Shown here one piece after another: positions 12,849 through 41,082 of a DNA stretch of 44,296 bases (positions within the stretch are counted from its first letter, which is position 1; every line of letters begins with the position of its first letter). This DNA comes from Clostridiales bacterium (lineage in GTDB: Bacteria; Bacillota; Clostridia; Lachnospirales; Lachnospiraceae): positions 1-44,296 of the forward strand of contig JAJQEU010000083.1 of the NCBI GenBank assembly GCA_021201535.1, in the 5' to 3' direction. The notes beneath the pieces are model-generated. The model was not told the origin of the DNA, did not search any database, and saw only the letters and a list, made by a program, of their open reading frames with translations. Both the position numbers and the translations under genes were made by a program.

Positions 12849-13910
12849 TTATTTATTAGCGATAGCCTTCTGAATCTCCTCCGTCAGCAGCGGCACGATC
12901 TTGTTCAGATCGCCGACGATGCCGTAATCCGCGACATCGAAAATAGGCGCATCTTCATCCTTATTGATCGCGATGATAATGTCTGCCTCCTCCATGCCGG
13001 CCACATGCTGAATGGCGCCGGAGATACCGATGGCAAAGTATACATTCGGGCGGACCGTCTTGCCGGTCTGTCCCACCTGCAGATCCTTCGGCTTCCAGCC
13101 GCTGTCCACAACCGCACGGGAGCAGGACACTGTACCGCCCACAACTGCGGCCAGTTCCTCAAGAATCTTAAAGTTCTCCGGAGAACCGACACCGCGGCCG
13201 CCGGACACGAGGATCTTGGCATCCTGGATATCAACGACATCCGCAACGTTCTTCACGATGTCGAGAATCTCGACATATTTCTTATCGGGTGTGAAGCCGG
13301 GGTTGTACTCGACCACGTCCGCTTTCGCATCTGCGATGGGCTCGTTCTTCTGCATAACACCCGGGCGGACAGTCGCCATCTGCGGACGGTTGTCCGGGCA
13401 GGCGATCGTCGCGATGGTGTTGCCGCCGAATGCGGGACGGGTCATGAGCAGCTGATTGTGTTTCTGCTCCTTGCCCGGCATCGCCACCAGCGGGAAATCA
13501 CCGATATCCAGAGATGTACAGTCTGCGGTCAGACCGGTCTTCACACGAGCGGACACACGGGGGCCGAGATCGCGGCCGATCGCCGTAGCGCCCACCAGCA
13601 TGATCTCCGGCTTAAACTCATTAATTACGGAAGCCAGCGCATGCGTGTAAGGCTCTGTGCGGTATACCTCCAGCTCCTTGTCGTCCACTACAATCACCTT
13701 GTCCGCGCCGTAAACGGCGAGCTGATCCGCGAGATCCTTTACATTGTAGCCGATCAGAACTGCGGCCACCTTCTGGCCCAGATCGTCTGCAAGGTCTTTG
13801 GCTTTGCCCAGCAGCTCAAACGCGATCGGGCTGATTTCATTATCTACCTGCTGAGCGAATACATATACGTCTTTGTACTGCTCGATTAAGGATTGTTCCA
13901 TTGCTGCCAT
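12849..13910 (-). CDS. etfA: Electron transfer flavoprotein alpha subunit
   Basis: A 353-residue EtfA. The C-terminal FAD-binding domain shows the family signature: SGGRGVGSPENF (~215-226), GQTGKTV, then YFAIGISGAIQHVAGM and AINKDEDAPIFDVADYGIVGD. The N-terminal half forms the domain shared with EtfB. In clostridial butyrate formation the EtfAB dimer works with butyryl-CoA dehydrogenase and can bifurcate electrons from NADH to crotonyl-CoA and ferredoxin. Last gene of the operon, 19 bases after etfB. AAGGAG 9 bases before the ATG at 13910 supports that start, and a terminator follows. Confidence 0.97.
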   Translation of the reverse strand: MAAMEQSLIEQYKDVYVFAQQVDNEISPIAFELLGKAKDLADDLGQKVAAVLIGYNVKDLADQLAVYGADKVIVVDDKELEVYRTEPYTHALASVINEFKPEIMLVGATAIGRDLGPRVSARVKTGLTADCTSLDIGDFPLVAMPGKEQKHNQLLMTRPAFGGNTIATIACPDNRPQMATVRPGVMQKNEPIADAKADVVEYNPGFTPDKKYVEILDIVKNVADVVDIQDAKILVSGGRGVGSPENFKILEELAAVVGGTVSCSRAVVDSGWKPKDLQVGQTGKTVRPNVYFAIGISGAIQHVAGMEEADIIIAINKDEDAPIFDVADYGIVGDLNKIVPLLTEEIQKAIANK

Positions 13911-13929
13911 TGTTCATCTCTCCTTTCTC

Positions 13930-14718
13930 TTAAAGACCGCACACATGCTTCTCTGTCATCTTGCCGATCAGATATGCGACAGACTCTTCTGTGTCGAGGT
14001 TTACTTTTTCTCCGGCACCCTTGCGAACCTTATCGGATGCTTTTGCGATCTTCGTCGGAGAACCGGAAAGACCGATATTGGAATCATCCAGACCAACCAG
14101 ATCTGCTCTGCCCCATGTCGTGATCTCTGCCTCGCACGCGTCAAAAATGCCGCCCGGCGTCATATATCTGGGCTCATTCAGCTCGGAAAGGCAGGTGATC
14201 AGGCAGGGCATCTGTGCCTTTACAATGTGGTATCTGTCGTCATACTGACGCTGAACAACTACAGAATCGCCCTCGATCTTAATATCCTGCGCATAAGAGA
14301 TCACCGGAATATCCAGATGCTCGGAGATCTGCGGACCAACCTGCGCGGTGTCGCCGTCGATTGCCTGACGTCCGGTGATGATCAGGTCATAGTCCAGTTT
14401 GCGGATACCGGCAGCGATAGTAGAAGAGGTCGCCCAGGTATCGGCGCCGCCGAGTACGCGGTCTGTGATCAGAATGCCTTTGTCTGCTCCCATGGCTATG
14501 GCCTCTCGAAGCACATCCGCAGCCTTCGGCAGACCCATGGTCACAACGGTCACTTCCGCGCCATACTGGTCTTTTAATCTCAGAGCCGCCTCAACGCCTG
14601 CCTTGTCATCCGGGTTCATAATGGTCAGCATCGCCGCTCTGTTCAGGGTTCCGTCCGGATTGAACTGAACTCCGCCTGCCGTATCAGGTACCTGTTTTAT
14701 ACAAACAATAACTTTCAT
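13930..14718 (-). CDS. etfB: Electron transfer flavoprotein beta subunit
   Basis: A 262-residue EtfB, the normal family length. It starts MKVIVCIKQVPDT and contains ITGRQAIDGDTAQVGPQ, the loop that contacts nucleotide/FAD, and LSELNEPRYMTPGGIFDA near the C-terminus. It is 13 bases after bcd and 19 before etfA, so the three are one transcript. An AGGAGG site 9 bases before the ATG sets the start. The placement directly behind bcd is that of clostridial Bcd-Etf complexes, which makes a bifurcating role likely, though this is inferred from context rather than from a tested residue. Confidence 0.97.
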   Translation of the reverse strand: MKVIVCIKQVPDTAGGVQFNPDGTLNRAAMLTIMNPDDKAGVEAALRLKDQYGAEVTVVTMGLPKAADVLREAIAMGADKGILITDRVLGGADTWATSSTIAAGIRKLDYDLIITGRQAIDGDTAQVGPQISEHLDIPVISYAQDIKIEGDSVVVQRQYDDRYHIVKAQMPCLITCLSELNEPRYMTPGGIFDACEAEITTWGRADLVGLDDSNIGLSGSPTKIAKASDKVRKGAGEKVNLDTEESVAYLIGKMTEKHVCGL

Positions 14719-14731
14719 GAATTCATTCCTC

Positions 14732-15898
14732 CTACTTCAACAGATTTGCAGAAATAACCATACGCTGAACCTCGCTGGTTCCCTCGTAGATCTCTGTAAT
14801 CTTGGCATCACGCATCATGCGCTCCACATCGTACTCTCTGATATAACCGTAGCCGCCATGCAGCTGAACACACTTGGTCGTAACCTCCATGGCAACCTCT
14901 GCCGCCATCAGCTTCGCCTGAGCCGCCTCTACGGAATAAGAAATCTTAGCGCCTGCCTGATATTCATCCTTTTTGAGCGCCGCCTTGTAAACCATCAGCT
15001 GCGCCGCCTCAACCTTCGTTGCGAGGTCGGCCAGCACGAACTGCGTGTTCTGGAACTGAGCGATGCTTCTGCCGAACTGCTTTCTCTCCTTTACATAGGC
15101 GATGGTTGCTTCCAGCGCGCCTTCTGCCAGACCGAGCGCCTGAGCGGCGATTCCGATCCGTCCGCCATCCAGCGTATGCATCGCGATACCGAAGCCCTTG
15201 CCCTTCTGTCCGAGGAGGTTCTCCTTCGGGATACGGCAGTCTGTAAAGATCAGCTCATAGGTGGAAGAACCACGGATACCCATCTTCTTTTCCTTGACAC
15301 CGAAGGTGAATCCCGGCGTGCCCTTCTCAACAATGAAAGCAGAAATCTCTTTCTGTACTCTGCCGCGCTTCTCAACCTTGCCGGTCACGGCGATCACGAT
15401 ATATACGTCCGCCTCTTTACCGTTGGTGATAAAGCACTTGGAACCGTTGATCACCCACTCGTCGCCGTCTAAAACCGCCTTGGTCTGCTGTCCCTGCGCG
15501 TCAGTACCTGCACCCGGCTCGGTCAGACCGAAAGCGCCGAGCTTTTTGCCGGTAGCCAGATCCGGGATATATTTTTCCTTCTGCTCCTTCGTGCCATAGG
15601 TCAGAATCGGGTCAATGCACAGGGAAGTGTGTGCGGAAACAATCACGCCTGTCGTGCCGCAGACCTTGGATAACTCCTCCACACACATCGCATAGGTCAG
15701 GATATCGCAGCCCTGTCCGCCGTACTCCTTCGGAACCGGGATGCCCAGAAAACCGTATTTCGCCATTTTTTCGACGGTCTCTCTCGGGAATCTCTCCTCC
15801 TCATCCACTTCCTGCGCAAGAGGTTTTACTTCATTCTCAGCGAATTCTTTGAAAAGGCTTCTGGCCATTTCATGCTTCTTACTTAATCCGAATTCCAT
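14732..15898 (-). CDS. bcd: Butyryl-CoA dehydrogenase (short-chain acyl-CoA dehydrogenase)
   Basis: A 388-residue FAD-dependent acyl-CoA dehydrogenase that reduces crotonyl-CoA to butyryl-CoA. Visible motifs: the FAD/substrate loop [11 protein letters not shown] (~132-142), [21 protein letters not shown], and IYEGTSEVQ near the C-terminus, whose first Glu is the catalytic base at about residue 372, as in short-chain acyl-CoA dehydrogenases. The frame is open five codons upstream, but GGAGG lies 8 bases before the ATG at 15898, inside that extension, so 15898 is the start. It lies 25 bases after hbd and 13 before etfB. Confidence 0.96.
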
Positions 15899-15923
15899 TA
15901 TTATTTCCTCCATATATTATTGT

Positions 15924-16763
15924 TTACTTGCTGTAATCATAGAAGCCGATACCGGTCTTGCAGCCGAGCTTGCCCGCGCGTACCATCTTCCGGAGCAGCG
16001 GCGCCGGACGGTATTTCGTATCACCTGTCTCCGCATAGATCACTTCCATGATCGCAAGGCAGATATCCAGGCCGATGTAGTCGCCGAGCTGCAGCGGACC
16101 CATCGGATGGTTCGCTCCCAGCTTCATGGCAGCATCTATATCCTCTACACTTGCAACACCCGCTTCAAGCACACATATACCCTCGTTGATCATCGGAACA
16201 AGGATACGGTTTACGACAAAGCCGGCCGCTTCCTTCACCTGAACCGGCGTCTTGCCGATCTCTTTGGAGATCTCAATAATCTGATCACGAAGCTCATCCG
16301 GCGTGTTCTCACCCTGAATCACCTCGATCAGCTTCATGACCGGTGCCGGATTAAAGAAATGCATACCGATCACCGGGCGATCCAGTCCCGCGCCGATTTC
16401 CGTAATAGAAAGAGACGATGTGTTTGATGCAAAAATGCAGCCGTCCGGAACAATGTCCTGCAGCTCCTTAAATGTCTGCTTCTTTACATCCATCACTTCC
16501 AGTGCCGCCTCCACGATCAGGTCCGCCTCTGTGCAGATGTCCTTCGTGCCGGTAGTAATCTTCGCCAGAACAGCATCAGCAGCCGCCTGCTCCATCTTAC
16601 CCTTTGCGATCCGTTTCTCAAAACCCTTCGCGATCTTGTTCTTGCCTTTTGCCGCAAGCTCGTCATTGATATCACACAGATATACCTCATATCCTTCTGT
16701 CTGCGCAAAAGCCTGGGCAATGCCTGAACCCATCGTACCGGCTCCGATAACTCCAACCTTCAT
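15924..16763 (-). CDS. hbd: 3-hydroxybutyryl-CoA dehydrogenase
   Basis: A 279-residue NAD(P)-dependent enzyme that reduces acetoacetyl-CoA to 3-hydroxybutyryl-CoA. The Rossmann motif is GAGTMG at 7-12; SNTSSLSI and the catalytic His135 in [17 protein letters not shown] follow, and the C-terminal domain contains [10 protein letters not shown] and [12 protein letters not shown]. First gene of the hbd-bcd-etfB-etfA operon, with AAGGAGG 9-10 bases before the ATG. The -10-like TATAAT about 28-33 bases upstream has only a weak -35. No crotonase gene stands between thl and hbd, where several relatives carry it. Confidence 0.96.
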
Positions 16764-16825
16764 GAAAATGTACCTCCTTAAAAAATATATGATAATTATA
16801 GAATACCTAAACCCGAAGCGAATCC

Positions 16826-16853
16826 TCGTTATTATTTTATCGTTATTATTTTA
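16826..16853 (+). repeat. 14-bp tandem repeat upstream of hbd
   Basis: TCGTTATTATTTTA occurs twice head to tail with no mismatch (16826-16839, 16840-16853). It lies between the thl terminator and the probable hbd -10 element, in the place of an upstream activator or repressor site. Confidence 0.75.
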
Positions 16854-16868
16854 ACTAATAACCGTTCG

Positions 16869-16897
16869 AAAAAAGCTCCGTCTAGCGGAGCTTTTTT
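16869..16897 (-). terminator. Intrinsic terminator between thl and hbd
   Basis: A perfect 12-bp inverted repeat with a 5-base loop: AAAAAAGCTCCG, TCTAG, then CGGAGCTTTTTT. The flanking A/T tracts make it able to work in both directions. It closes the thl transcript about 150 bases after the stop codon. Confidence 0.9.
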
Positions 16898-16937
16898 CTA
16901 TCTACGAAAGTCTTGGTTGTCTAATATCCTGTCATTC

Positions 16938-16989
16938 GGGTGTGCAAGCACCCCCGCCTGACAGTCTATTGACAACACTTTCATAGTAA
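16938..16989 (-). repeat. 3' repeat element, copy B, downstream of thl
   Basis: Second copy of the element at 1-56. The 26-base block 16964-16989 differs at one base from 31-56. Beside it lies a hairpin around TGCAAGCA (GGGTG at 16938-16942 with CACCC at 16949-16953), enclosed by a wider CTGTCA/TGACAG pairing. On the minus strand it begins 57 bases after the thl stop codon, almost the same distance as copy A from its gene. Confidence 0.65.
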
Positions 16990-17046
16990 GTCACACCGGA
17001 TTCATCATCAGCTATGTATATCCATTGTATAAGTATAAAGAGAGAA

Positions 17047-18234
17047 TTAAGCTTCCTTCTTAACAATAGTCGCGCAGCCCATGCCGCCGCCGATACACAG
17101 AGTAGCCAGTCCGTATGTCACGTCTCTCTTCTGCATCGCATGCAGCAGAGTAACCAGGATACGGCAGCCGGATGCTCCTACCGGATGTCCGAGAGCAACA
17201 GCTCCGCCGTTGACATTCAGGATGTCAGAACTGAAGCCAAGCTCCTTCTGAACCGCTACTGACTGAGCTGCAAACGCCTCATTCGCCTCGATGAGGTCGA
17301 TGTCGCCTATCTCAAGACCGGCGATCTTCAGAGCCTTTTTGGTAGCCGGAACCGGTCCGATACCCATGATCTTCGGATCACATCCGCCGAGTGCGCCGGA
17401 TACGAACGTAGCCATCGGCTTAACGCCGAGCTCTTCTGCCTTCTCTGCGCTCATCACGACCACTGCCGCAGCGCCATCGTTGATACCGGAAGCGTTGCCT
17501 GCGGTAACCAGTCCGCCCTCTTTGCCGGAGCAGCATCTCAGCTTGCCAAGCGTCTCAACGGTGGTACCCGGACGAGGACCCTCATCCTTCGTGATCATAA
17601 CAGTCTCTTTTTTAACCTTAACCGGAACCGGAACAATCTCGTCGTCAAATGCGCCGGACTCCTGAGCAGCTACTGCCTTCTGCTGGGAAGCAGCGGAGAA
17701 AGCATCCAGCTCCTCGCGGGTCAGTCCCCACTGATCGCAGATATTCTCAGCCGTGATCATCATATGATAGTTATTGAACGCATCCCACAGAGCGTCATTC
17801 ACCATCGTATCGATGATCGTGGAGTTGTTCATTCTGTAACCGAAACGTGCTTTCTTTAACGCATACGGAGCCATGGACATGTTCTCCATACCGCCGGCAA
17901 CTACGATGTCAGCCTGTCCGGCCATGATCATATTAGCAGCCTCGTTCACGCACTTCAGACCGGAACCGCATACTACGTTCAGCGTAAATGCCGGAACCTC
18001 GTTCGGAATGCCGGCCTTGATGGAAGCCTGGCGCGCTACGTTCTGTCCCAGGGAAGCCTGGATTACGCAGCCCATCATAACCTCGTCAACCTGCTCCGGC
18101 TGAACTCCGGCTCTGTTCAGAGCCTCTTTGATCACGATCGAACCCAACTCAACAGCCGGTGTGTTGCCAAACTGTCCGCCCATCTTGCCGATTGCTGTCC
18201 GGCAGGCGCCTGCGATTACAACTTTCTTTGCCAT
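17047..18234 (-). CDS. thl: Acetyl-CoA C-acetyltransferase (thiolase)
   Basis: A 395-residue biosynthetic thiolase that condenses two acetyl-CoA to acetoacetyl-CoA, the first step towards butyrate. The catalytic residues are in place: nucleophile Cys89 ([10 protein letters not shown]), His350 in [11 protein letters not shown] and Cys380 in [14 protein letters not shown] 8 bases before the ATG sets the start. It has its own strong promoter, 5' hairpin, 3' repeat and terminator, so it is transcribed apart from hbd-bcd-etf, although the order on the chromosome is the pathway order. Confidence 0.97.
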
Positions 18235-21645: not shown

Positions 21646-23328
21646 TTATAATGAGATCTTATCCCTCAATACTTCTACCCTGCACTCATGTCGCTTTGCC
21701 GTATCTTTCCTGTGATAAGCAATGCCCACTGCGAGAACGCGCCCTGTATATTCCGGCTTTTGTCCGGGCTTTCCCATAAAACGCAGCACATACTGCCGAT
21801 CTTTAATCTGTTCGATGGCCTCATCTACAGTGTGATCCACCTTGAGCTCTATAATAAGAGCATCATCATCTCTCCGAAACGGATAAAAAATATAGTCCAC
21901 ATAACCGGTACCTGCTCTGTCCTCCCGCTCAATTCGATAAGTTTCAATCGCAGAAAGATAGATCCAACGGAGCATGGAAGCCAGCTCCGCCTCATGAATA
22001 TAACTGTTTAACGGACTTATCGTATGATGCGCAAACTGAAGTATTTCAGCCATCGTCTTCGTGTCTCCGGCTTTTGTCGCACGCAGCATTCTTTCGGATT
22101 CCTTTGCGATCTGATAGACGCTGCCCAGAGATGCCTCTTTTTTCACCATTTCTGAAAACTTACCCATCAGTTCACGGTTCGGTATAGACACGCAGCCATC
22201 TGAATAATTCAGAAAACCATACACTACCATGGCAGAAAAAATCTCATCTCTCGTCCTCAGCTCCATGGATGTCGCAGCATAATCCTGTACTTTAGCCGGA
22301 ACAGGAAGATCGGCCACCATCAGACCAACCGGTTCCTTCACCTCATCTACATTGGCGCCGACATAATAGAACAGTTCGTCATATGGTCCGGAACTGGTCC
22401 AGTAATTATCAATCTGATTATTTGTCAGGGCATATACCACAGAACGCGGGTTGTATACACGTATGCCGCTACGCGTCTGATAGCCATCGTACCAGAACCG
22501 GAGGTCTTCCCTCAAGATACGGGGATTCGAAGAAACATCCTGCATGAGATATCGTGCGTATAGTTCATCCACCTCGGCATCCGTAAAACCAAAATATTCA
22601 GAATATACCGCCTGCGTCGCCATCGTATACTCGCAGAACATATTCAGTTCTGACCCGCTCGAGTACTTCGCAATGGGAAGTATGCCGGTCATGTAAGCCA
22701 TTTCCACATATGCTCTGTCTTTCAGAAGAAGGCTTAAAAATTTTGTAAAAGACTCTTTATCGGAATCGGAGACAAATCTCTGGTGATAAATATAATCCCA
22801 CTCATCCAATACAAAAATAAACTTCTCACGCCCACAATACTCAAATACCATGGTCAGAGCATCCCACACCGCATCGTCACTCTCAATCCCGGCATCCGGA
22901 TATTCCATCTGCAAATCACGGAGAAGCATTTTCTTTATTCTGCCGATATATTGCGCGTATGTCGTCAATTCATCAGGCATGTCATTAAACGAAATATGAA
23001 TAACATTATGCGCGTTCAGATGCCGCTGGTACCATTCACAGGAGGAAGCCTTCATATGGGCAAACTGACTGCTGCTGTCTGCTCCTCTGCCAAAATAGGC
23101 CGATATCATATTCGCCATCATGGTTTTACCAAACCGCCGCGGCCGGGTAATACATGTATATTTGATACTCTTTTTTCCATTGCCGCCGGCTGCCACCGCA
23201 AGGTTTTCCCCCATCTCTACGATTGGCACAAGATCATTCAGTATAGCCGATTTATCAACATAATACGTACCCGCGCAGTCATCGCAGAACATTTCATGCG
23301 CGCCGGCGCTGTTCAGATAAAATCCCAT
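21646..23328 (-). CDS. AAA-ATPase-like / PD-(D/E)XK nuclease family protein
   Basis: A 560-residue two-domain protein. The N-terminal AAA-ATPase-like domain (PF09820 type) has the atypical P-loop TRPRRFGKTMMANM (Lys68) and Walker B FIFVLDEWD. The C-terminal part carries a PD-(D/E)XK nuclease-like core, GTGYVDYIFYPF then ALIIELKVDHTVDEAIEQI (DUF1703 type). Such proteins are multicopy in gut Firmicutes and Bacteroides and have no settled function; defence or mobile-element roles have been suggested. The ATG at 23328 has GGAGG 5 bases upstream and is preferred to the GTG at 23340. A second, frameshifted member lies at 39494-41082. Confidence 0.88.
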   Translation of the reverse strand: MGFYLNSAGAHEMFCDDCAGTYYVDKSAILNDLVPIVEMGENLAVAAGGNGKKSIKYTCITRPRRFGKTMMANMISAYFGRGADSSSQFAHMKASSCEWYQRHLNAHNVIHISFNDMPDELTTYAQYIGRIKKMLLRDLQMEYPDAGIESDDAVWDALTMVFEYCGREKFIFVLDEWDYIYHQRFVSDSDKESFTKFLSLLLKDRAYVEMAYMTGILPIAKYSSGSELNMFCEYTMATQAVYSEYFGFTDAEVDELYARYLMQDVSSNPRILREDLRFWYDGYQTRSGIRVYNPRSVVYALTNNQIDNYWTSSGPYDELFYYVGANVDEVKEPVGLMVADLPVPAKVQDYAATSMELRTRDEIFSAMVVYGFLNYSDGCVSIPNRELMGKFSEMVKKEASLGSVYQIAKESERMLRATKAGDTKTMAEILQFAHHTISPLNSYIHEAELASMLRWIYLSAIETYRIEREDRAGTGYVDYIFYPFRRDDDALIIELKVDHTVDEAIEQIKDRQYVLRFMGKPGQKPEYTGRVLAVGIAYHRKDTAKRHECRVEVLRDKISL

Positions 23329-23471
23329 GTCGGCCTCCACCCCTTTTCTCTGATACTTTCCGAAAAATCATAACACAGGATTTGACACTTGTCATCTGTT
23401 TTTTATGAACGGCAGCAATGAAGTATGAACTCAGCCTCCGGACTGATAAGGAACTGTTTTATCTGACGAAA

Positions 23472-31958: not shown

Positions 31959-33551
31959 TTACACAACCGCTTCCACTAAAACTTTATCGCCCAGTTGAAT
32001 CTCTCTCACGCCGATTTTTTTCTTTCGATTAAAATTAAAACTAAGCATGTATCCCTGATTCAAATGATAATGTTCCAGGTATTCGATCAGCTGTTTTTCA
32101 CCCCTGGTATTATAAGCATTGCCATGCCAGATTTTCATTTCTACCACATACTGTTTTCCACAATAATCTATGATAATATCGGTTCGCTCCTGATTGCGCG
32201 TTCTGGACTCAATATAATAATTCCCGGTTCCGTTTATAATGGGTCTCAAATACAGCAGGAAGTATCGCCTGCCATCCTCCTCCAGAAATCTCTGCGGTTG
32301 ATCGCCATAAAGATCATCAAAACTGATTACAAAACGCTCCAGAATCAATTTCATATCCAGGCTGTCTTTTTTTACAAACTGATATTTATAGCGGTCACCG
32401 AGTGTATACATCTTACTGCCCTGCATTTCAGGAGACGTAAGAAACATATTGTATAATCGCGTTTCAAAAATACGATTTGCAATCACCGCTTTTTTATGAA
32501 CAACTTTAAGGAAACCAAACATTATTGCTATGTCAATAGCTTCATCATCCGGATTATACGAGATTTCTTTTCCGTTCATCAGAAGTGCATACAACAACTC
32601 TCTGAGTTCAGGATAAGAGTCCACTTTGTCCTGTAAAGATTCAAACAGCATACTTTTCTCATTCAGAATACGGCTGACAGCCTCCACCACACCTGCCGCA
32701 GTCCATGCGGACGCTTCATCAGGAAACTCATTCGTTCCTGTTATCTGTTCATCAATCAGATTGCAAATCCTTGAAACCAAAAACGGATACCCTGACGTAT
32801 AATCAAAAATAAGTTCAGATACTGCACGAATATCCATTCCGGTCATATGGTCTTTTTCATATTCCCGAAGCATACCGGCAATATCTCCCGTTGAAAAGCT
32901 CATATCTACCAGATAGTCCGTCGCAATGTTCCACGGACTATTTGTCTTGTGCTGCTCCTCCGTCACAAACTTTCGTTTCAGGTTTTTTATGTCATATACC
33001 CCCGCCAGAATAACCGATTGGAATGTCGGAGTAATATCGCGATCAATATATCCCGCTCGTAATTGAGCCAGAAAATCCAGAAAGACCTGATAATTTGAAG
33101 CAGTATCCACCTCATCTATAATCAAAACCACTGGTTTGGGCGACTGTTCACACCAATCACTCAGATAGAAAAACAACTTTGAGAGATTCATATTCTCAAC
33201 CACTGCAAACGCAAGAGATTTCAATACATCACGCACACTGTCCGAGATACCTGCTTCCTTTTTCACACTGTTATAACACACTCTTGCAAAAGCCTGGGAA
33301 AATCGCTCATTGCAGGAAAAATCTACAGAATCCAATTTCTGAAAATCCAGGCTGACAACAACATATCTCTCTTTCAACCGGGAAGCAAGCGCGCGGAGAG
33401 TCGTAGTTTTTCCATATTGACGGGCGCGATTCATGGTAAAATAATCTCCACGGTCTATCATTGCTTCTATCTCTTTCAGGCGGTCTGTAATATCAACCAT
33501 ATAATGAAGCTCCGGTCGACACACAGCTGTTACGTTAAATCGTTTAGCCAT
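31959..33551 (-). CDS. AAA-like ATPase with C-terminal PD-(D/E)XK domain
   Basis: A 530-residue protein of the 'AAA-like domain' type (PF14516-like), of a different subfamily from the genes at 21646 and 39494. The P-loop is NRARQYGKTTTL (Lys48) and Walker B VVLIIDEVDTAS (~140). A helical middle region with SGYPFLVSRICN matches the STAND-type lid. The C-terminus holds a nuclease-like core, RTDIIIDYCGKQYVVEMKIW (D...ExK), followed by QLIEYLEHY. Function is unknown; defence or mobile-element control is possible. AGGAGG 8 bases before the ATG fixes the start. Confidence 0.85.
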   Translation of the reverse strand: MAKRFNVTAVCRPELHYMVDITDRLKEIEAMIDRGDYFTMNRARQYGKTTTLRALASRLKERYVVVSLDFQKLDSVDFSCNERFSQAFARVCYNSVKKEAGISDSVRDVLKSLAFAVVENMNLSKLFFYLSDWCEQSPKPVVLIIDEVDTASNYQVFLDFLAQLRAGYIDRDITPTFQSVILAGVYDIKNLKRKFVTEEQHKTNSPWNIATDYLVDMSFSTGDIAGMLREYEKDHMTGMDIRAVSELIFDYTSGYPFLVSRICNLIDEQITGTNEFPDEASAWTAAGVVEAVSRILNEKSMLFESLQDKVDSYPELRELLYALLMNGKEISYNPDDEAIDIAIMFGFLKVVHKKAVIANRIFETRLYNMFLTSPEMQGSKMYTLGDRYKYQFVKKDSLDMKLILERFVISFDDLYGDQPQRFLEEDGRRYFLLYLRPIINGTGNYYIESRTRNQERTDIIIDYCGKQYVVEMKIWHGNAYNTRGEKQLIEYLEHYHLNQGYMLSFNFNRKKKIGVREIQLGDKVLVEAVV

Positions 33552-33856
33552 GATTATATCCTCCTTTCTGTCCTGAATAGTTACCTCAATTCATTATAAC
33601 TACTACACTTTCACCGCGCAATATAAAATATTTTTAATCGCTGAAAAGTAACCCGTGCACCACTGAGAAGGAGCAGCCCCCATCCGTCTGTATACCCGAT
33701 GGGGCTGCTCCTTCTAAAGAGGATATATATAAATACGGGCAGTTTTTATAAATCGCGCAACTGTTCCGCATTCTTCACAGTCACGGGGAAATCCATGAAA
33801 AACCGCCTCATATCCGGCTCAACATAATGATCATCCGTCCGCAAAAAACCAGCGCC
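33552..33856. other. Intergenic region with a large hairpin and a 36-codon in-frame tail
   Basis: A 305-base gap. It contains the hairpin 33666-33715 and, on the minus strand, 36 sense codons directly continuing the dehydrogenase frame after its TAA (33749-33856). The left part (33552-33665) holds only AT-rich upstream sequence of the AAA gene. Confidence 0.6.
33666..33715. repeat. Large inverted repeat, 18-bp stem
   Basis: AGAAGGAGCAGCCCC at the left is matched by GGGGCTGCTCCTTCT at the right; the full stem is 18 bp with one bulged C and a 13-base loop. Neither side is followed by a T-run, so it is not a standard intrinsic terminator. It lies downstream of the cyclitol operon and may protect its mRNA 3' end. 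Confidence 0.8.
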
Positions 33857-34885
33857 TTATTTTGTCATATCGATCAGCACCTTGATCGCGGACGCGAACA
33901 GTTCCTTCCGCTCAAAGAGATGCTCGCACTCCGAGAGCGGCACCACCTCCATGATCATCTGCTCCACATAGGGGCTGTAGGTCAGGATCTGCTCCATGGC
34001 CTTCGGAAATCCGCCGGTGCTTCCGTTGCTGGCGTGAATCGTCAGGGATTTCTTTACCACCGTGCCGAAATCAAATTCCATCGGCGCCTGGTGGCCCAGA
34101 CAGACGAGATGGCCGCACGGGTTGATCACCGTGAGAGACTGCTGCAGGCTCTCGCTGTGCCCGGTCGCCTCCACGATCAGGTCAAATGTCCCGATCCGCT
34201 CCTCGCTGATCTCCTGTGTGTTGCAGCACTCTGCCCGCACCTGCGGAAATCCGAATCCCTGCACCCGACTGACCTTGTCAGCCAGGACGTCGACCATCAC
34301 GATCTCCGGAATGCCAGCGTCGAGAAGCGTAAACAGAGACATCAGACCGATGCCGCCGCAGCCCAGGATCAGCGCCCGCCGCGTTCTTTTCAGGACATCA
34401 TCGGGAACCCTGTTTCGTATCCCGTTCACCGCGACCGACATGGGCTCCGTCAGCGTCAGCAGCATGGGGTGATCCGACGACGGACAGGCATTGACGTGCC
34501 TCTCCTTTACGACAATAAAATTCGCCGCGCCTCCGTCCACCGTAATGCCCTTTTTCTCAATCGTCTCACAGTGGTTTTTATTGACGCCGCAGTAATAGCA
34601 GTCGCCGCAGTACAGTGAGCAGTCGCCCACCACCGTCAATCCGACCGGCAAACTCACATCGCTGCCCTTTTCCCGGATGGTTCCCAGCCACTCGTGACCC
34701 ATGACGACGGGATAGCTGTGCGGCGCCGTGTAGGTTCCGGCGTACAGCTTGACGTCGGAACCGCAGACGGCTACATAGTGCACCTCTATGAGAACTTCAT
34801 CCTCCTTCGGAACCGGGATTTTCTGCGGGACAAGCGCCATCCGTCCCGGCTCCATGATTGTCAATGCAAGATTTTTCTTTTCCAT
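33857..34885 (-). CDS. Zinc-dependent dehydrogenase, 2-deoxy-scyllo-inosamine dehydrogenase-like
   Basis: A 342-residue medium-chain dehydrogenase. Catalytic zinc ligands are Cys41, His64 and Glu65 (VCGSD, GHEW); the structural zinc site is Cys93, Cys96, Cys99 and Cys106; the NAD(P) motif is LGCGGIG (~173-179). Overall it resembles sorbitol/threonine dehydrogenases and, from memory, the BtrE/NeoA group that oxidises 2-deoxy-scyllo-inosamine in aminoglycoside pathways. The neighbouring inosose-synthase-like gene makes a cyclitol substrate likely; reduction of an inosose ketone to an inositol is equally possible. It is the last gene of the operon, 4 bases after the isomerase, with AAGGA 8 bases before the ATG. 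Confidence 0.85.
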   Translation of the reverse strand: MEKKNLALTIMEPGRMALVPQKIPVPKEDEVLIEVHYVAVCGSDVKLYAGTYTAPHSYPVVMGHEWLGTIREKGSDVSLPVGLTVVGDCSLYCGDCYYCGVNKNHCETIEKKGITVDGGAANFIVVKERHVNACPSSDHPMLLTLTEPMSVAVNGIRNRVPDDVLKRTRRALILGCGGIGLMSLFTLLDAGIPEIVMVDVLADKVSRVQGFGFPQVRAECCNTQEISEERIGTFDLIVEATGHSESLQQSLTVINPCGHLVCLGHQAPMEFDFGTVVKKSLTIHASNGSTGGFPKAMEQILTYSPYVEQMIMEVVPLSECEHLFERKELFASAIKVLIDMTK

Positions 34886-34889
34886 TCTC

Positions 34890-35723
34890 TCAGTCCTTCG
34901 ACATCTTCCCGATCAGATAGTCCCTGCTCTCTTTCAGAGCACGCTCCCACATCTGATCATGATTGTGCAGCTCCACGCACACATAATGCTGATAACCGGA
35001 GTCCTCGATGATCTTCACGATCCGGCCGAAATCAATATCGCCCTCACCGGGAATCTCGTGGAAATGCACCCGGTTTTTGATATCCTCCACATGGATGTGC
35101 CGGGTGTACGGCAGGGAGAGTGCTACATTATCATAGCATTCCTCCTCCGGCTCACAGCAGAACACATGCCCGATATCCAGATTGAAGCGCAGCTTCGGCG
35201 TGTCAAATTCCTGAATGTATTTCAGGGCTGTTTCTGTGGTTCCCACAAAGAATCCGGGCTCCTGCTCCAGTACCAGCGTGATATCGCCCGCCTCGCGCAG
35301 CAGTTCCTCCATCCCCTCCCGGAAATAGGCATCCGCCTGCGCCGCGGTCACGCCCGGCTTTAAAATACCGGAGTTGATATTCAGGATCGGAGATCCTACC
35401 GTGTGCGCCAGCTCGATCGCACTCTTGTACGCGTCCAGACGCTGTCTGCGTCCGGCGGCATCTGCCCAGATCATGGACGGCTCGTAAGGTGTCTCCGCCA
35501 GGAACGTCGGTCCCCCGGCGGCCACACACGCGATCACAAGTCCGATGTCTTCGCAGTATTTCCGGACATCCCGCAGACGTTCCGGGCTGCTCTTATACGG
35601 ATGAATATGCGTGTCATTCAGGGCGATCTCCACAGCCTCATAGCCCGCGTCTTTGATATGGCTGAGCGCCTCAAAAATATCCATATACCGGAGCGTCGTC
35701 GCGTTAAAACAAAGCTTAAGCAC
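34890..35723 (-). CDS. Sugar phosphate isomerase/epimerase-like TIM-barrel protein
   Basis: A 277-residue xylose-isomerase-like (AP endonuclease 2) TIM barrel. Metal ligands of the family are visible: Glu in VLEQEPG (~144), Asp/His in FNLDIGHVF (~177-180), His in HIHVEDIK and Glu in VCVELHNHDQ. Relatives include IolE/IolI inosose-processing enzymes and hexulose epimerases, so an inosose or ketose substrate fits the operon. The start is uncertain: the GTG at 35723 has GGAAG 8 bases upstream and overlaps the synthase stop by 8 bases; GTG at 35732 and TTG at 35756 are alternatives. It lies between the synthase and dehydrogenase genes. Confidence 0.82.
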   Translation of the reverse strand: MLKLCFNATTLRYMDIFEALSHIKDAGYEAVEIALNDTHIHPYKSSPERLRDVRKYCEDIGLVIACVAAGGPTFLAETPYEPSMIWADAAGRRQRLDAYKSAIELAHTVGSPILNINSGILKPGVTAAQADAYFREGMEELLREAGDITLVLEQEPGFFVGTTETALKYIQEFDTPKLRFNLDIGHVFCCEPEEECYDNVALSLPYTRHIHVEDIKNRVHFHEIPGEGDIDFGRIVKIIEDSGYQHYVCVELHNHDQMWERALKESRDYLIGKMSKD

Positions 35724-36882
35724 AGCATTCACTTCCCTTCCCGAGTTTTTGATCAATGATTGAATTGTGCTCGGCCAGAGCCTTTCTCACCAGGCCTTCA
35801 TCCACACATACCTGGAAGTCTCCGTCCGGATTCAGGCACTCGCCGATCTTCTTCAGGATGACGTATTTCACGCCCTTCACGGTCTTCTTGTTATCCGCCA
35901 GAATCGTGGACATGATGTTCTCCACGGTGATTCCGGCCGGTATCTTCAGATCCAGACCCAGGCATTCGCCGAAGAGACGATAGTGCTTATCAACCTCCTC
36001 CTGCGTCAGATAACCGAGCGTGTGGGAGATCTCCGCCGCAACACACATACCTTTCGCGACCGCGATGCCGTGAGGAATCGAACCGCCGGAGTAGAACTCG
36101 ATGGCATGCCCGAAGGTGTGGCCGTATTCGAGCGCCATGGCAAACAGCTTCTCGGAAGGATCCTGCTCCAGAATCGGAAGCTTCGAGCAGATCACGCTGT
36201 AGGCCAGCTCCGTCACGGTCAGGATATCCATATGGTTGAAATCCTCGCGCGCCAGCACTTCCTCATAATAGGGAAGCAGGCTCTCGTCATTGATAAACGC
36301 GTTCTTGATGCCCTCGGCAATCGCCGATTTCCGACCGGTAATGCTCTCGGTCGCCAGATAAGCCGTATCCCCGAAGATAAACTGCGGCGCGTAGTAGACG
36401 CCGTACTGGTTCTTGCCCTGCTTGCCGTTCACCGCCTGCTTGTTGCTGAGGCAGCTGTCGGTGAGCCCCATGAAGGTCGTCGGCATCTCGACATAACGGA
36501 TGCCCCGGTAGATCATGGCGGCTGACAGTCCCACGATGTTTGTCAGGCAGCCGCCCCCGAAGCTGACGATGATCGATCCCTTCGTCACATTCTTCGAAAC
36601 CAGTGTCTCGCACAGGTATTCCAGCGTCTGGAAGGTCTTGTCATGTTCGGTATCCGGGATCGTCAGCATCTCATTCACGATTCCCGCCGCATCCAGAGAA
36701 TCCGTCACATCTTTTCCGTACAGCTCTTTCAACTGCTCCGTCGTCACCACAAACACCTTATCATTTTCGTACTCTTTCAAAAGCTTCCCGAGCTCCGGCA
36801 TAATGCCGCATCCGAAATAATAGCCGGGATCCGGTTTCAAAAATGTATTAAAATGTATCATTTTACCTTTTTCGAACTTCAT
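35716..36882 (-). CDS. 2-deoxy-scyllo-inosose synthase-like enzyme (dehydroquinate synthase superfamily)
   Basis: A 388-residue sugar-phosphate cyclase. Visible: SFGGGCLTNIVG (NAD loop, ~107-118), MPTTFMGLTDSCLSNKQAVN with GKNQYGVYYAP (catalytic Lys148 region), metal ligands Glu190, His255 and His271 (AIAEGIKN, EYGHTFGHAIE, IPHG; the two His 16 apart, as in BtrC). SNKQAVN and the Glu-Tyr before GHT agree with BtrC/NeoC-type 2-deoxy-scyllo-inosose synthases as I remember them, rather than with AroB. Such enzymes turn glucose 6-phosphate into a deoxy-inosose. AAGGAG 7 bases before the ATG at 36882 sets the start. First gene of the operon; another sugar-phosphate cyclase specificity (for example a valiolone-type) remains possible. 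Confidence 0.82.
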   Translation of the reverse strand: MKFEKGKMIHFNTFLKPDPGYYFGCGIMPELGKLLKEYENDKVFVVTTEQLKELYGKDVTDSLDAAGIVNEMLTIPDTEHDKTFQTLEYLCETLVSKNVTKGSIIVSFGGGCLTNIVGLSAAMIYRGIRYVEMPTTFMGLTDSCLSNKQAVNGKQGKNQYGVYYAPQFIFGDTAYLATESITGRKSAIAEGIKNAFINDESLLPYYEEVLAREDFNHMDILTVTELAYSVICSKLPILEQDPSEKLFAMALEYGHTFGHAIEFYSGGSIPHGIAVAKGMCVAAEISHTLGYLTQEEVDKHYRLFGECLGLDLKIPAGITVENIMSTILADNKKTVKGVKYVILKKIGECLNPDGDFQVCVDEGLVRKALAEHNSIIDQKLGKGSECCA

Positions 36883-37126
36883 AATATCACTCCTTCTTGT
36901 GCTTTCTGCATTGTTTTCAAGTCTTGGCCCAGACATTTTTATTACATTTATACAATATCACAAATAAAGGGTCGGATTTATTCCGAAAAAGATTTTATTT
37001 TTGCGGGGATTTCATCATCGTATTTTAATTGTATAACAAACGGTACATATAGTCGCAGCCCGGGTGTGTGCCTGCGTATATCGTCGAATATGAATGTATT
37101 TCTGAGTATTTTTATTGTGTTATTCC

Positions 37127-39493: not shown

Positions 39494-39754
39494 ATGGGTA
39501 CCTATTTAAATCCGGGTAATCAGGGTTTCCAGACCATCAGAAATGACATATACGTTGACAAAACGGGACTGATCGATTATATAAACAGTACCATAGACAC
39601 CCCCCGCAAACTGACCTGTTTTTCCCGCCCCCGACGGTTTGGAAAATCCTTTGCGGCAAAAATGCTGTGCGCGTATTACGATAAAAGCTGTGACTCACGT
39701 GCTCTGTTCAGCGGGTTGGAGATAGCGGAGAAAACATCCCCGAAAAAAATATGA
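39494..39754 (+). CDS. N-terminal part of a frameshifted AAA-ATPase-like/nuclease gene
   Basis: An 86-residue frame carrying the start of the AAA-ATPase-like family (PF09820 type): GNQGFQTIRNDIYVDKTGLI and the atypical P-loop SRPRRFGKSFAAKM. AAGGAG 8 bases before the ATG marks a true start. The frame ends at a TGA just after a run of seven A (39743-39749). The rest of the protein continues in the -1 frame, where the junction ...SPKKNMNRYDVIYLD matches the family without a gap. One missing A, or slippage on the run, explains it. Confidence 0.8.
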   Translation: MGTYLNPGNQGFQTIRNDIYVDKTGLIDYINSTIDTPRKLTCFSRPRRFGKSFAAKMLCAYYDKSCDSRALFSGLEIAEKTSPKKI

Positions 39755-41082
39755 ATCGGTACGATGTCATTTATCTGGATATCACGAGATTCATTTCTAC
39801 CGTTTCCGATATGAGCAGGATGATTATCAGCATTCAGTCAGCTGTAATCGAAGAACTGATGCATCAATATCCTCTCTATGTAAGAGACGGCGAGACTATC
39901 CTTGCGAACGCTCTTTTACAGATTTCAGAAAAAACCGGAGATAAATTCATTATCATCATTGACGAATGGGATGCTTTGTTTCGCGAAGCCAAACACGATG
40001 ACGCTCTGCAGAAAGAATATGTGCAGCTGCTGAGAGGTCTTTTTAAGGGAGGTCCTTCCACGGATAAGACCATCGCCGCGGCTTACATGACCGGTATTCT
40101 TCCGATCAAAAAATACGGGACAGAATCCACACTGACAGATTTTCTTGAATTCTCGATGACCCATCCTGCCAAACTCGCAAAATATATCGGCTTTACAGAA
40201 CAGGAGGTCAGACAGCTCTGCGATGATTATCATATGGATTTTGAAAAAATGAGCGCCTGGTATGACGGATATTCCTTCAGCCGTATGCAGCATGTATATA
40301 ATCCGAACTCCGTCATAAAATCTGTCATAAATGAAGAATACGCGAATTACTGGACCGGTTCTGAGACTTATGAATCGCTGAAGAATTATATCAGCATGAA
40401 CTTCGACGGACTGAAGGATGCCATCGTTGCCATGCTCGGCGGAAAAGAAGTCCGGGTTACCGTCAGTACATTCCAGAATGATGTAACTACATTCAAAAGT
40501 AAAGATGACGTTCTGACTCTGTTAATCCATCTTGGCTATCTGGGGTACCATGCCAAAGAACGTCGGGCATTCATTCCGAATCAGGAGGTTGCAGATGCTT
40601 TTTCAGACGCTGTCCGGGGAGATGACTGGAGTGACATCGAAAAGTTGATTCAGGAGTCAGAGGATTTACTGGAATCTACCATCCGCGGCGATTCAGATGC
40701 CGTGGCGGAGGCACTGGAGCGGGTACACAGCTCGAACTCTTCCGTACTCAGATACAACAACGAGGCATCCTTAAGCAGTGCAATCATGATTGCCTACTAC
40801 ACCGCGCGTCGTTTTTACAAGATTGTTCCGGAGTTTCCGCAGGGAAAAGGGTTCGCCGATCTGGTTTTTCTGCCGCGCAAAGACACAGACAAGCCGGTCA
40901 TGATCATCGAGTTAAAATATGATAAGGATGCAGACACCACCATACGGCAAATCCATGAAAACCGATATGACGGCGATTTGAAAAAATATTTCGGGAACCT
41001 GCTTCTGGTCGGAATAAATTACGATAAAGATGCGACCGGATCAAACAGAAAAAATCACTCTTGCATCATCGAAAACGCATAA
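39751..41082 (+). CDS. Main part of a frameshifted AAA-ATPase-like/PD-(D/E)XK nuclease gene
   Basis: A 443-residue frame with no P-loop of its own. It has Walker B FIIIIDEWDALF (~70), the family sequence TGILPIKKYG and WYDGYSFS, and ends with the nuclease-like core GKGFADLVFLP then PVMIIELKYDKDADTTIRQI. The ATG at 39751 overlaps the TGA of the first frame (ATGA) and has no ribosome site of its own, so it depends on re-initiation or frameshifting. With the first frame it would make a protein of about 530 residues, the normal family length and similar to the intact copy at 21646-23328. Confidence 0.82.
   Translation: MNRYDVIYLDITRFISTVSDMSRMIISIQSAVIEELMHQYPLYVRDGETILANALLQISEKTGDKFIIIIDEWDALFREAKHDDALQKEYVQLLRGLFKGGPSTDKTIAAAYMTGILPIKKYGTESTLTDFLEFSMTHPAKLAKYIGFTEQEVRQLCDDYHMDFEKMSAWYDGYSFSRMQHVYNPNSVIKSVINEEYANYWTGSETYESLKNYISMNFDGLKDAIVAMLGGKEVRVTVSTFQNDVTTFKSKDDVLTLLIHLGYLGYHAKERRAFIPNQEVADAFSDAVRGDDWSDIEKLIQESEDLLESTIRGDSDAVAEALERVHSSNSSVLRYNNEASLSSAIMIAYYTARRFYKIVPEFPQGKGFADLVFLPRKDTDKPVMIIELKYDKDADTTIRQIHENRYDGDLKKYFGNLLLVGINYDKDATGSNRKNHSCIIENA

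Follow-up and report, generated by a model that had tools for sequence, protein, structure and literature searches.

The question raised by this locus is what could be made by an operon that couples a cyclase resembling 2-deoxy-scyllo-inosose synthase (DOIS) to a xylose-isomerase-like TIM barrel and to a zinc-dependent dehydrogenase. The operon lies in a stretch of 44,296 nucleotides from a Clostridiales bacterium of the family Lachnospiraceae (GenBank assembly GCA_021201535.1, contig JAJQEU010000083.1), hereafter called the window. We consider it fairly probable that the operon makes, from glucose 6-phosphate, a polyhydroxybenzene that serves as a co-substrate and primes the pyrogallol transhydroxylase AthLS; 1,2,3,5-tetrahydroxybenzene (THB) is the likeliest candidate.

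The three genes are all on the minus strand. The cyclase (388 aa, Pfam DHQ_synthase and DHQS_C) occupies positions 35716 to 36882, from an ATG at 36882 to a TAA stop at 35718-35716. The TIM barrel (277 aa, Pfam AP_endonuc_2; 34890 to 35723), a predicted keto-cyclitol dehydratase or isomerase, begins with a GTG at 35723, so that it overlaps the end of the cyclase gene by 8 bases, and stops with a TGA at 34892-34890. The third gene, encoding a medium-chain, zinc-dependent and IolM/RspB-like alcohol dehydrogenase that is predicted to act on a cyclitol (342 aa, Pfam ADH_N and C-terminal ADH domains; 33857 to 34885), has its ATG at 34885, 4 bases past the TIM-barrel stop, and runs to 33857. The three-gene anatomy and the translational coupling described in a first-pass annotation of this DNA are thereby confirmed. 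Low dN/dS values against genome G589 (0.087 for the cyclase, 0.043 for the TIM barrel and 0.080 for the dehydrogenase), together with a gene order that is kept in distant genomes, show that these are genes and not chance open reading frames (ORFs).

Scores, residues and phylogeny support a cyclase of the DOIS type rather than an AroB. Its best match among solved structures is DOIS 2d2x (E 1.3e-42), with dehydroquinate synthase (DHQS) 5eks close behind (E 8.5e-41), and its predicted structure (pLDDT 65.8) matches DHQS and DOIS about equally and does not discriminate between them. An AroB paralogue was rejected, as the cyclase reaches 236.5 bits where the NCBIfam equivalog model TIGR01357 has a cut-off of 305, and as residues and tree are also on the DOIS side. 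The window genome has a second cyclase, on contig C107, which is above this cut-off (351.9 bits) and is presumably the shikimate enzyme. In an alignment including 16 AroB-like loci out of 36 fetched (L002, L005-L032, L035-L041), the cassette cyclases share with DOIS the residues S146, N194, A/G248, E252 and Y253 (window numbering), where the corresponding DHQS residues are Gly, Tyr/His/Thr, Arg, Asn and Leu/Phe/Met, respectively; this five-residue set is derived from the present alignment and is not a published fingerprint. At the A248 and E252 columns, Arg and Asn are found in all 16 DHQS rows read in the correct frame, and Ala/Gly and Glu in 9/9 cassette-type cyclases.

A phylogeny of the cyclase, which the first-pass annotation had proposed as a check, was run against DOIS and DHQS, with EEVS, aminoDHQS and DDGS left out; the tree is rooted at its midpoint and drew a long-branch warning from the program. 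The nine cassette-type cyclases form one clade (100/99), as do the five DOIS-type rows (99/96) and the 16 DHQS rows (100/99), and a branch supported at 100/99 separates the cassette cyclases and the DOIS-type rows from the DHQS rows. The DOIS-type rows comprise a fragment of BtrC, two DOIS-annotated plasmid genes and two relatives that lack this annotation but lie beside aminotransferases, and the DHQS rows are 14 AroB-like loci (L015 and L039, read in a wrong frame, left out) and two PDB fragments. The DOIS features noted in the first-pass annotation are thus borne out, and the cyclase groups with DOIS, not with AroB. DOIS (BtrC, PDB 2d2x/2gru) is its closest solved relative by sequence, and agrees with it at the five columns and in tree grouping, but the cassette cyclases are 28-37% identical to the DOIS-type rows, stand in a separate clade and have Lys, not Arg, at the K333 column. 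As a separate observation, the AroB of the window genome (L002:1378-2490) has Thr and Arg at the K157 and H259 columns, where the other rows read in the correct frame have Lys and His, and the same variant is found in two further loci of the genus, L036 and L041.

The two partners of the cyclase are less easily named. The TIM barrel belongs to the xylose-isomerase-like superfamily by PF01261 and by its fold, and it stays below the NCBIfam cut-offs of all the models that it matches, its best score being 60.4 bits where 300 are required. It had been described as an IolE/IolI-like barrel: the superfamily stands, and membership of IolE does not, with 21.2 bits for the window protein and 36.6 for the copy of genome G902 against a cut-off of 290 (TIGR04379). 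IolO was likewise rejected, its score being below cut-off, and the barrel is 15-22% identical to IolE, IolI, IolO and L-ketulose 3-epimerases among the top eight matches. The top NCBIfam model of the dehydrogenase is IolM and its top PDB chain is RspB (4ilk). It keeps the cysteines of the zinc-binding region found in these zinc dehydrogenases, but with 140.6 bits against a cut-off of 450 (NF041097) it was not accepted as an IolM, and it differs from this scyllo-inosose 3-dehydrogenase in adjoining a cyclase and a different TIM barrel.

The cassette is rare and scattered. A scan of a contig collection with two peptide patterns, from which more distant cassettes may escape, returned six loci: (i) G585, (ii) G589, (iii) Eubacterium sp. 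RUI314 (G601), (iv) Eubacterium oxidoreducens DSM 3217 (G103), (v) G602, a metagenome-assembled genome (MAG) of the Holophagaceae, and (vi) G603, a MAG of the Desulfobulbaceae. When orthologues are defined by at least 58% identity, the cyclase is found in 3 of 20 genomes of the genus, in 2 of 200 genomes of a family sample, where the other 147 matching genomes have AroB-type cyclases only (at most 33% identity among the matches listed), and in 1 of 391 genomes of a class sample, namely the window genome itself. It is also present in 2/93 genomes of the class of the Holophagaceae genome (G602 and G902) and in 1/242 of that of the Desulfobulbaceae genome (G603 itself). The full order of cyclase, TIM barrel and dehydrogenase is found in the window, G585, G589, E. 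oxidoreducens and a second cyclase locus of G902 (58% cyclase identity). RUI314 has the cyclase and the TIM barrel up to the contig end, G603 has both with a divergent dehydrogenase on a 4.5 kb contig, and G602 and the first G902 locus have a lone cyclase without the cassette partners. The neighbourhood varies: it includes accDA in the window and, as named by eye, carAB in G589 and, in E. oxidoreducens, a gene resembling trpB, so the cassette seems to behave as a movable module.

In G602, the cyclase carries a C-terminal IclR-type regulator (L049:4197-6116), whose best models are BhcR and PcaR/PcaU/PobR. The first G902 copy (L139:7864-9783) and the G603 copy (L050:1876-3795) are likely the same fusion by length and sequence: they have 640 and 639 aa, the C-terminal sequence of G603 is visibly the same as that of G602, and the likeness between the fused cyclases of G602 and G902 is 92%.

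The evidence that points to a particular product comes from the company kept by the cyclase. A search for molybdopterin-family proteins in seven genomes with the cassette or the cyclase led, in the window genome, to an AthL of 865 aa on contig C61, which scores 1620 bits against the large subunit of the solved pyrogallol hydroxytransferase (4v4c chain A) and matches PF21423. A small subunit adjoins it (337 bits against chain B), and the pair belongs to the pyrogallol hydroxytransferases. The AthL of E. oxidoreducens scores 1626 bits against the same large subunit. Relative to the AthL of the window genome, identity is 99.9% in G585, 98.6% in G589, 88% in E. oxidoreducens, 88% in G601, 80% in G602 and 78% in G902. 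AthL is therefore present at 78-100% identity in seven of the eight cyclase genomes, and the eighth, G603, has a more distant homologue. Of the genus, 8 of 20 genomes have AthL, among them all three cyclase carriers. The figure is 4/200 in the family sample, where both cyclase carriers are among the four, 2/391 in the class sample, one of them the window genome, and 2/93 in the class of the Holophagaceae MAG, where the two are precisely the cyclase carriers. No genome with the cyclase and without AthL was found in these sets of 20, 200, 391 and 93 genomes. The probability of such overlap by chance is 0.049 in the genus and 0.0002 in the class of the Holophagaceae genome, and the family sample gives 3/198 = 0.015 for E. 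oxidoreducens. These figures are only indicative, since they ignore relatedness and the samples are centred on carriers. Apart from this, the window genome has a second AthL-type large subunit (L081:16873-19458, minus strand), 63% identical to the first and accompanied on its contig by a separate homologue of the small subunit, and such a second large subunit also occurs in several relatives.

The window genome and some of the other carriers also have a phloroglucinol-degradation cluster. E. oxidoreducens is a studied degrader of gallate and phloroglucinol, and the phloroglucinol degradation cluster of four enzyme kinds described in Clostridium scatologenes occurs in it as well (PMC10470551). 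Contig C121 of the window genome encodes one protein of each of these four kinds: a short-chain dehydrogenase, a 3-hydroxyacyl-CoA-dehydrogenase-like protein, a PF04199 'cyclase' and a BKACE protein. The set, as homologues of PGR, HAD, DPGCH and TAL, also occurs in G585, G589 and E. oxidoreducens; in G589, the phloroglucinol cluster lies about 9 kb from the cassette on one contig. AthL genomes without the cyclase also carry the phloroglucinol set where this was looked at, G584 having all four genes and G588 the on-contig part. The window genome thus resembles the described system in having AthLS together with these four homologues, and differs from it by the cassette, as neither a source of THB nor such a cassette appears in the accessible part of that description (PMC10470551). 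In G423, which belongs to another family, AthL and AthS homologues lie directly downstream of a phloroglucinol-type cluster (L126:5784-15884), and no cassette cyclase was detected there.

THB is required by pyrogallol transhydroxylase (PMC13039779), and the cassette could supply it. The chemical steps, their order and their product, all of which we infer, would be as follows. The cyclase would convert glucose 6-phosphate, the substrate given for DOI synthase in PMC6170601, to 2-deoxy-scyllo-inosose (DOI) and phosphate, the dehydrogenase would oxidise one hydroxyl of DOI, the TIM barrel would take out water and/or shift the ketone via enediol chemistry, and the ring would tautomerise to an aromatic C6H6O4. 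The atoms can be counted: C6H13O9P less H3PO4 gives DOI, C6H10O5, which gives C6H8O5 on loss of two H and C6H6O4 on loss of H2O. On paper, one cyclase, one dehydrogenase and one dehydratase or isomerase thus suffice, and this is what the cassette contains. THB would then prime the molybdenum enzyme AthLS for the conversion of pyrogallol, derived from gallate and tannins, to phloroglucinol. If THB is regenerated in each turn of AthLS, catalytic amounts would do. Haddock and Ferry reportedly described, in the Journal of Bacteriology in 1993, a mutant that accumulated pyrogallol despite having the pathway enzymes and that depended on THB or dimethyl sulfoxide.

The 1,2,3,5 pattern sets a constraint on this scheme. 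The second oxygen-free carbon has to be meta to the CH2 of DOI, so either oxidation begins at the hydroxyl adjacent to the carbonyl, or the ketone moves by one carbon ahead of the elimination. A one-carbon ketone shift is a reaction type of the TIM-barrel superfamily. As described in PMC11467972, 1,2,3,5-THB can be obtained chemically from a protected inosose by eliminating two alkoxy groups, and free myo-inosose gives the 1,2,3,4 isomer in acid. The route to THB is thus feasible, and the isomer is not settled by sequence.

Several observations weigh against a role of the cassette in making THB. AthL is found without a detected cassette cyclase in 5 of the 8 AthL genomes of the genus, in 2 of the 4 of the family sample and in G423 (56% AthL identity); such genomes need THB from elsewhere or another kind of priming, and we conjecture that, if AthLS regenerates THB, occasional priming with THB from another source could suffice. 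The cassette is not adjacent to athLS at any locus examined. The AthL homologue of G603 is just 46% identical and may be other in function, for example of the resorcinol-hydroxylase type, and no BKACE match was found in this genome. In G601 and G602, the genes at the top-scoring BKACE locus resemble, by eye, those of lysine fermentation and not the phloroglucinol cluster, the second full-length BKACE of G602 aside. Finally, a dehydrogenase acting at the position oxidised in the 2-deoxystreptamine pathway would lead to the 1,2,4,5 isomer.

A rival reading, which we think unlikely, has the cassette produce another hydroxybenzene, 1,2,4,5- or 1,2,3,4-tetrahydroxybenzene or hydroxyhydroquinone, serving as a redox shuttle or other co-substrate. 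By our own reasoning, simple dehydration and oxidation of DOI lead more directly to a 1,2,4,5 or 1,2,3,4 pattern, in keeping with the behaviour of myo-inosose in acid, and the company of cyclase and AthL applies to such products equally well. The co-substrate stated for the transhydroxylase is, however, the 1,2,3,5 isomer (PMC13039779), and hydroxyhydroquinone would need no dehydrogenase, as it is C6H10O5 less two H2O.

The first-pass annotation had instead proposed that a non-aminated deoxy-inositol is made or recycled, which as an end product could be an osmolyte, a part of a glycan or a signal. A DOIS-type cyclase, a cyclitol-type dehydrogenase with IolM as its top model and the lack of a linked aminotransferase all agree with it, but it leaves unexplained why the cyclase was found only in genomes with AthL or a homologue and why it is fused in some of them to a regulator resembling BhcR and PcaR/PcaU/PobR. 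No common exporter or transferase was seen beside the cassettes when the ORF lists were inspected by eye. We hold this product to be quite improbable: AthL, the phloroglucinol cluster and the IclR fusion in the company of the cassette point instead to an aromatic polyol, most simply THB.

The same company might merely reflect a shared habitat, in which polyphenol degraders would happen to carry a cyclitol module, serving plant cyclitols for instance, that has nothing to do with AthL. Relatedness does inflate co-occurrence, since three carriers belong to one genus, E. oxidoreducens is close to RUI314, the fused cyclases of G602 and G902 are so alike and the samples are centred on known carriers. 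Against this, none of the AthL-less genomes in the sets of 20, 200, 391 and 93 was found to have the cyclase, which also occurs in distant lineages, and DOIS-type phosphate elimination is biosynthetic rather than catabolic, so that we give a mere coincidence of habitat little credence.

The lack of a linked aminotransferase, noted in the first-pass annotation, was found again. A Pfam scan of 30 ORFs in the window gave no aminotransferase domain, and tblastn with three DegT-type proteins gave no match in the 178,496 bases searched, which surround the cassettes and the cyclase copies and leave out the rest of the window genome. The inosose aminotransferase of a 2-deoxystreptamine aminoglycoside cluster was thus not found in the bases searched; in contrast to DOIS (BtrC), the neighbours of the cyclase are a TIM barrel and a dehydrogenase. 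By comparison, a DegT aminotransferase lies within about 8 kb of three of the four DOIS-type yardstick genes (Sodalis, SAT1 and NBC_00853, not NBC_00015). A DOIS-like cyclase coupled to these partners and without a linked aminotransferase makes an aminoglycoside route unlikely, and an aminocyclitol antibiotic pathway with its aminotransferase elsewhere in the genome is very improbable, even though the cyclase and dehydrogenase families resemble those of the 2-deoxystreptamine pathway.

Other features of the window complete the description of the locus. A ribosome-binding-site-like AGGAGTG (36888 to 36894, minus strand) precedes the ATG of the cyclase. A perfect inverted repeat of 15 nt, with 20 nt between its arms (33666 to 33715), sits between the operon and the next gene on the same strand (31959-33551) and is a candidate terminator. 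A promoter scan gave 4 sites where 3.2 are expected, which is close to chance, and terminator-like sites numbered 9 against 3.1. The gene at 31959-33551 encodes an AAA-ATPase that also follows the cassette in G585, and two other AAA-ATPases are encoded at 21646-23340 and 39751-41082; two of the three have a PDDEXK_9 nuclease-like domain and one a weak PDDEXK_3 match. Butyrate genes, for a thiolase, a 3-hydroxyacyl-CoA dehydrogenase, an acyl-CoA dehydrogenase and two electron-transfer flavoprotein subunits, are located at 12849-18234 on the minus strand. They would be compatible with the formation of acetate and butyrate from phloroglucinol, and no crotonase was found among the 30 window ORFs scanned.

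Every enzyme family of the cassette is already known. None of the titles and abstracts among the matches listed describes their combination, a DOIS-type clade outside aminoglycoside clusters or the tie to AthL. Nor does any of them deal with THB biosynthesis; as the matches listed are mainly open-access papers, an earlier publication is possible. We see an even chance that the cassette represents a shikimate-independent route to a benzene ring, from glucose 6-phosphate through DOI and its oxidation and dehydration to THB as a dedicated, catalytic co-substrate of the molybdenum transhydroxylase in anaerobic tannin degradation, with a first enzyme that in some lineages is fused to an IclR-type regulator, of a kind controlling aromatic catabolism.

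Anaerobic breakdown of gallate and tannins passes via pyrogallol and phloroglucinol, and the enzyme that turns the former into the latter needs THB, whose cellular source is left unexplained in the accessible parts of the texts surveyed. The cassette may answer this old question of the origin of the helper. If so, the THB gap would be closed, a DOIS-type cyclase would have a function beyond aminoglycosides, and benzenoids could be made from sugar by a new enzymatic route. The cassette would also provide a marker to distinguish anaerobes that start pyrogallol degradation alone from those that possibly depend on others.

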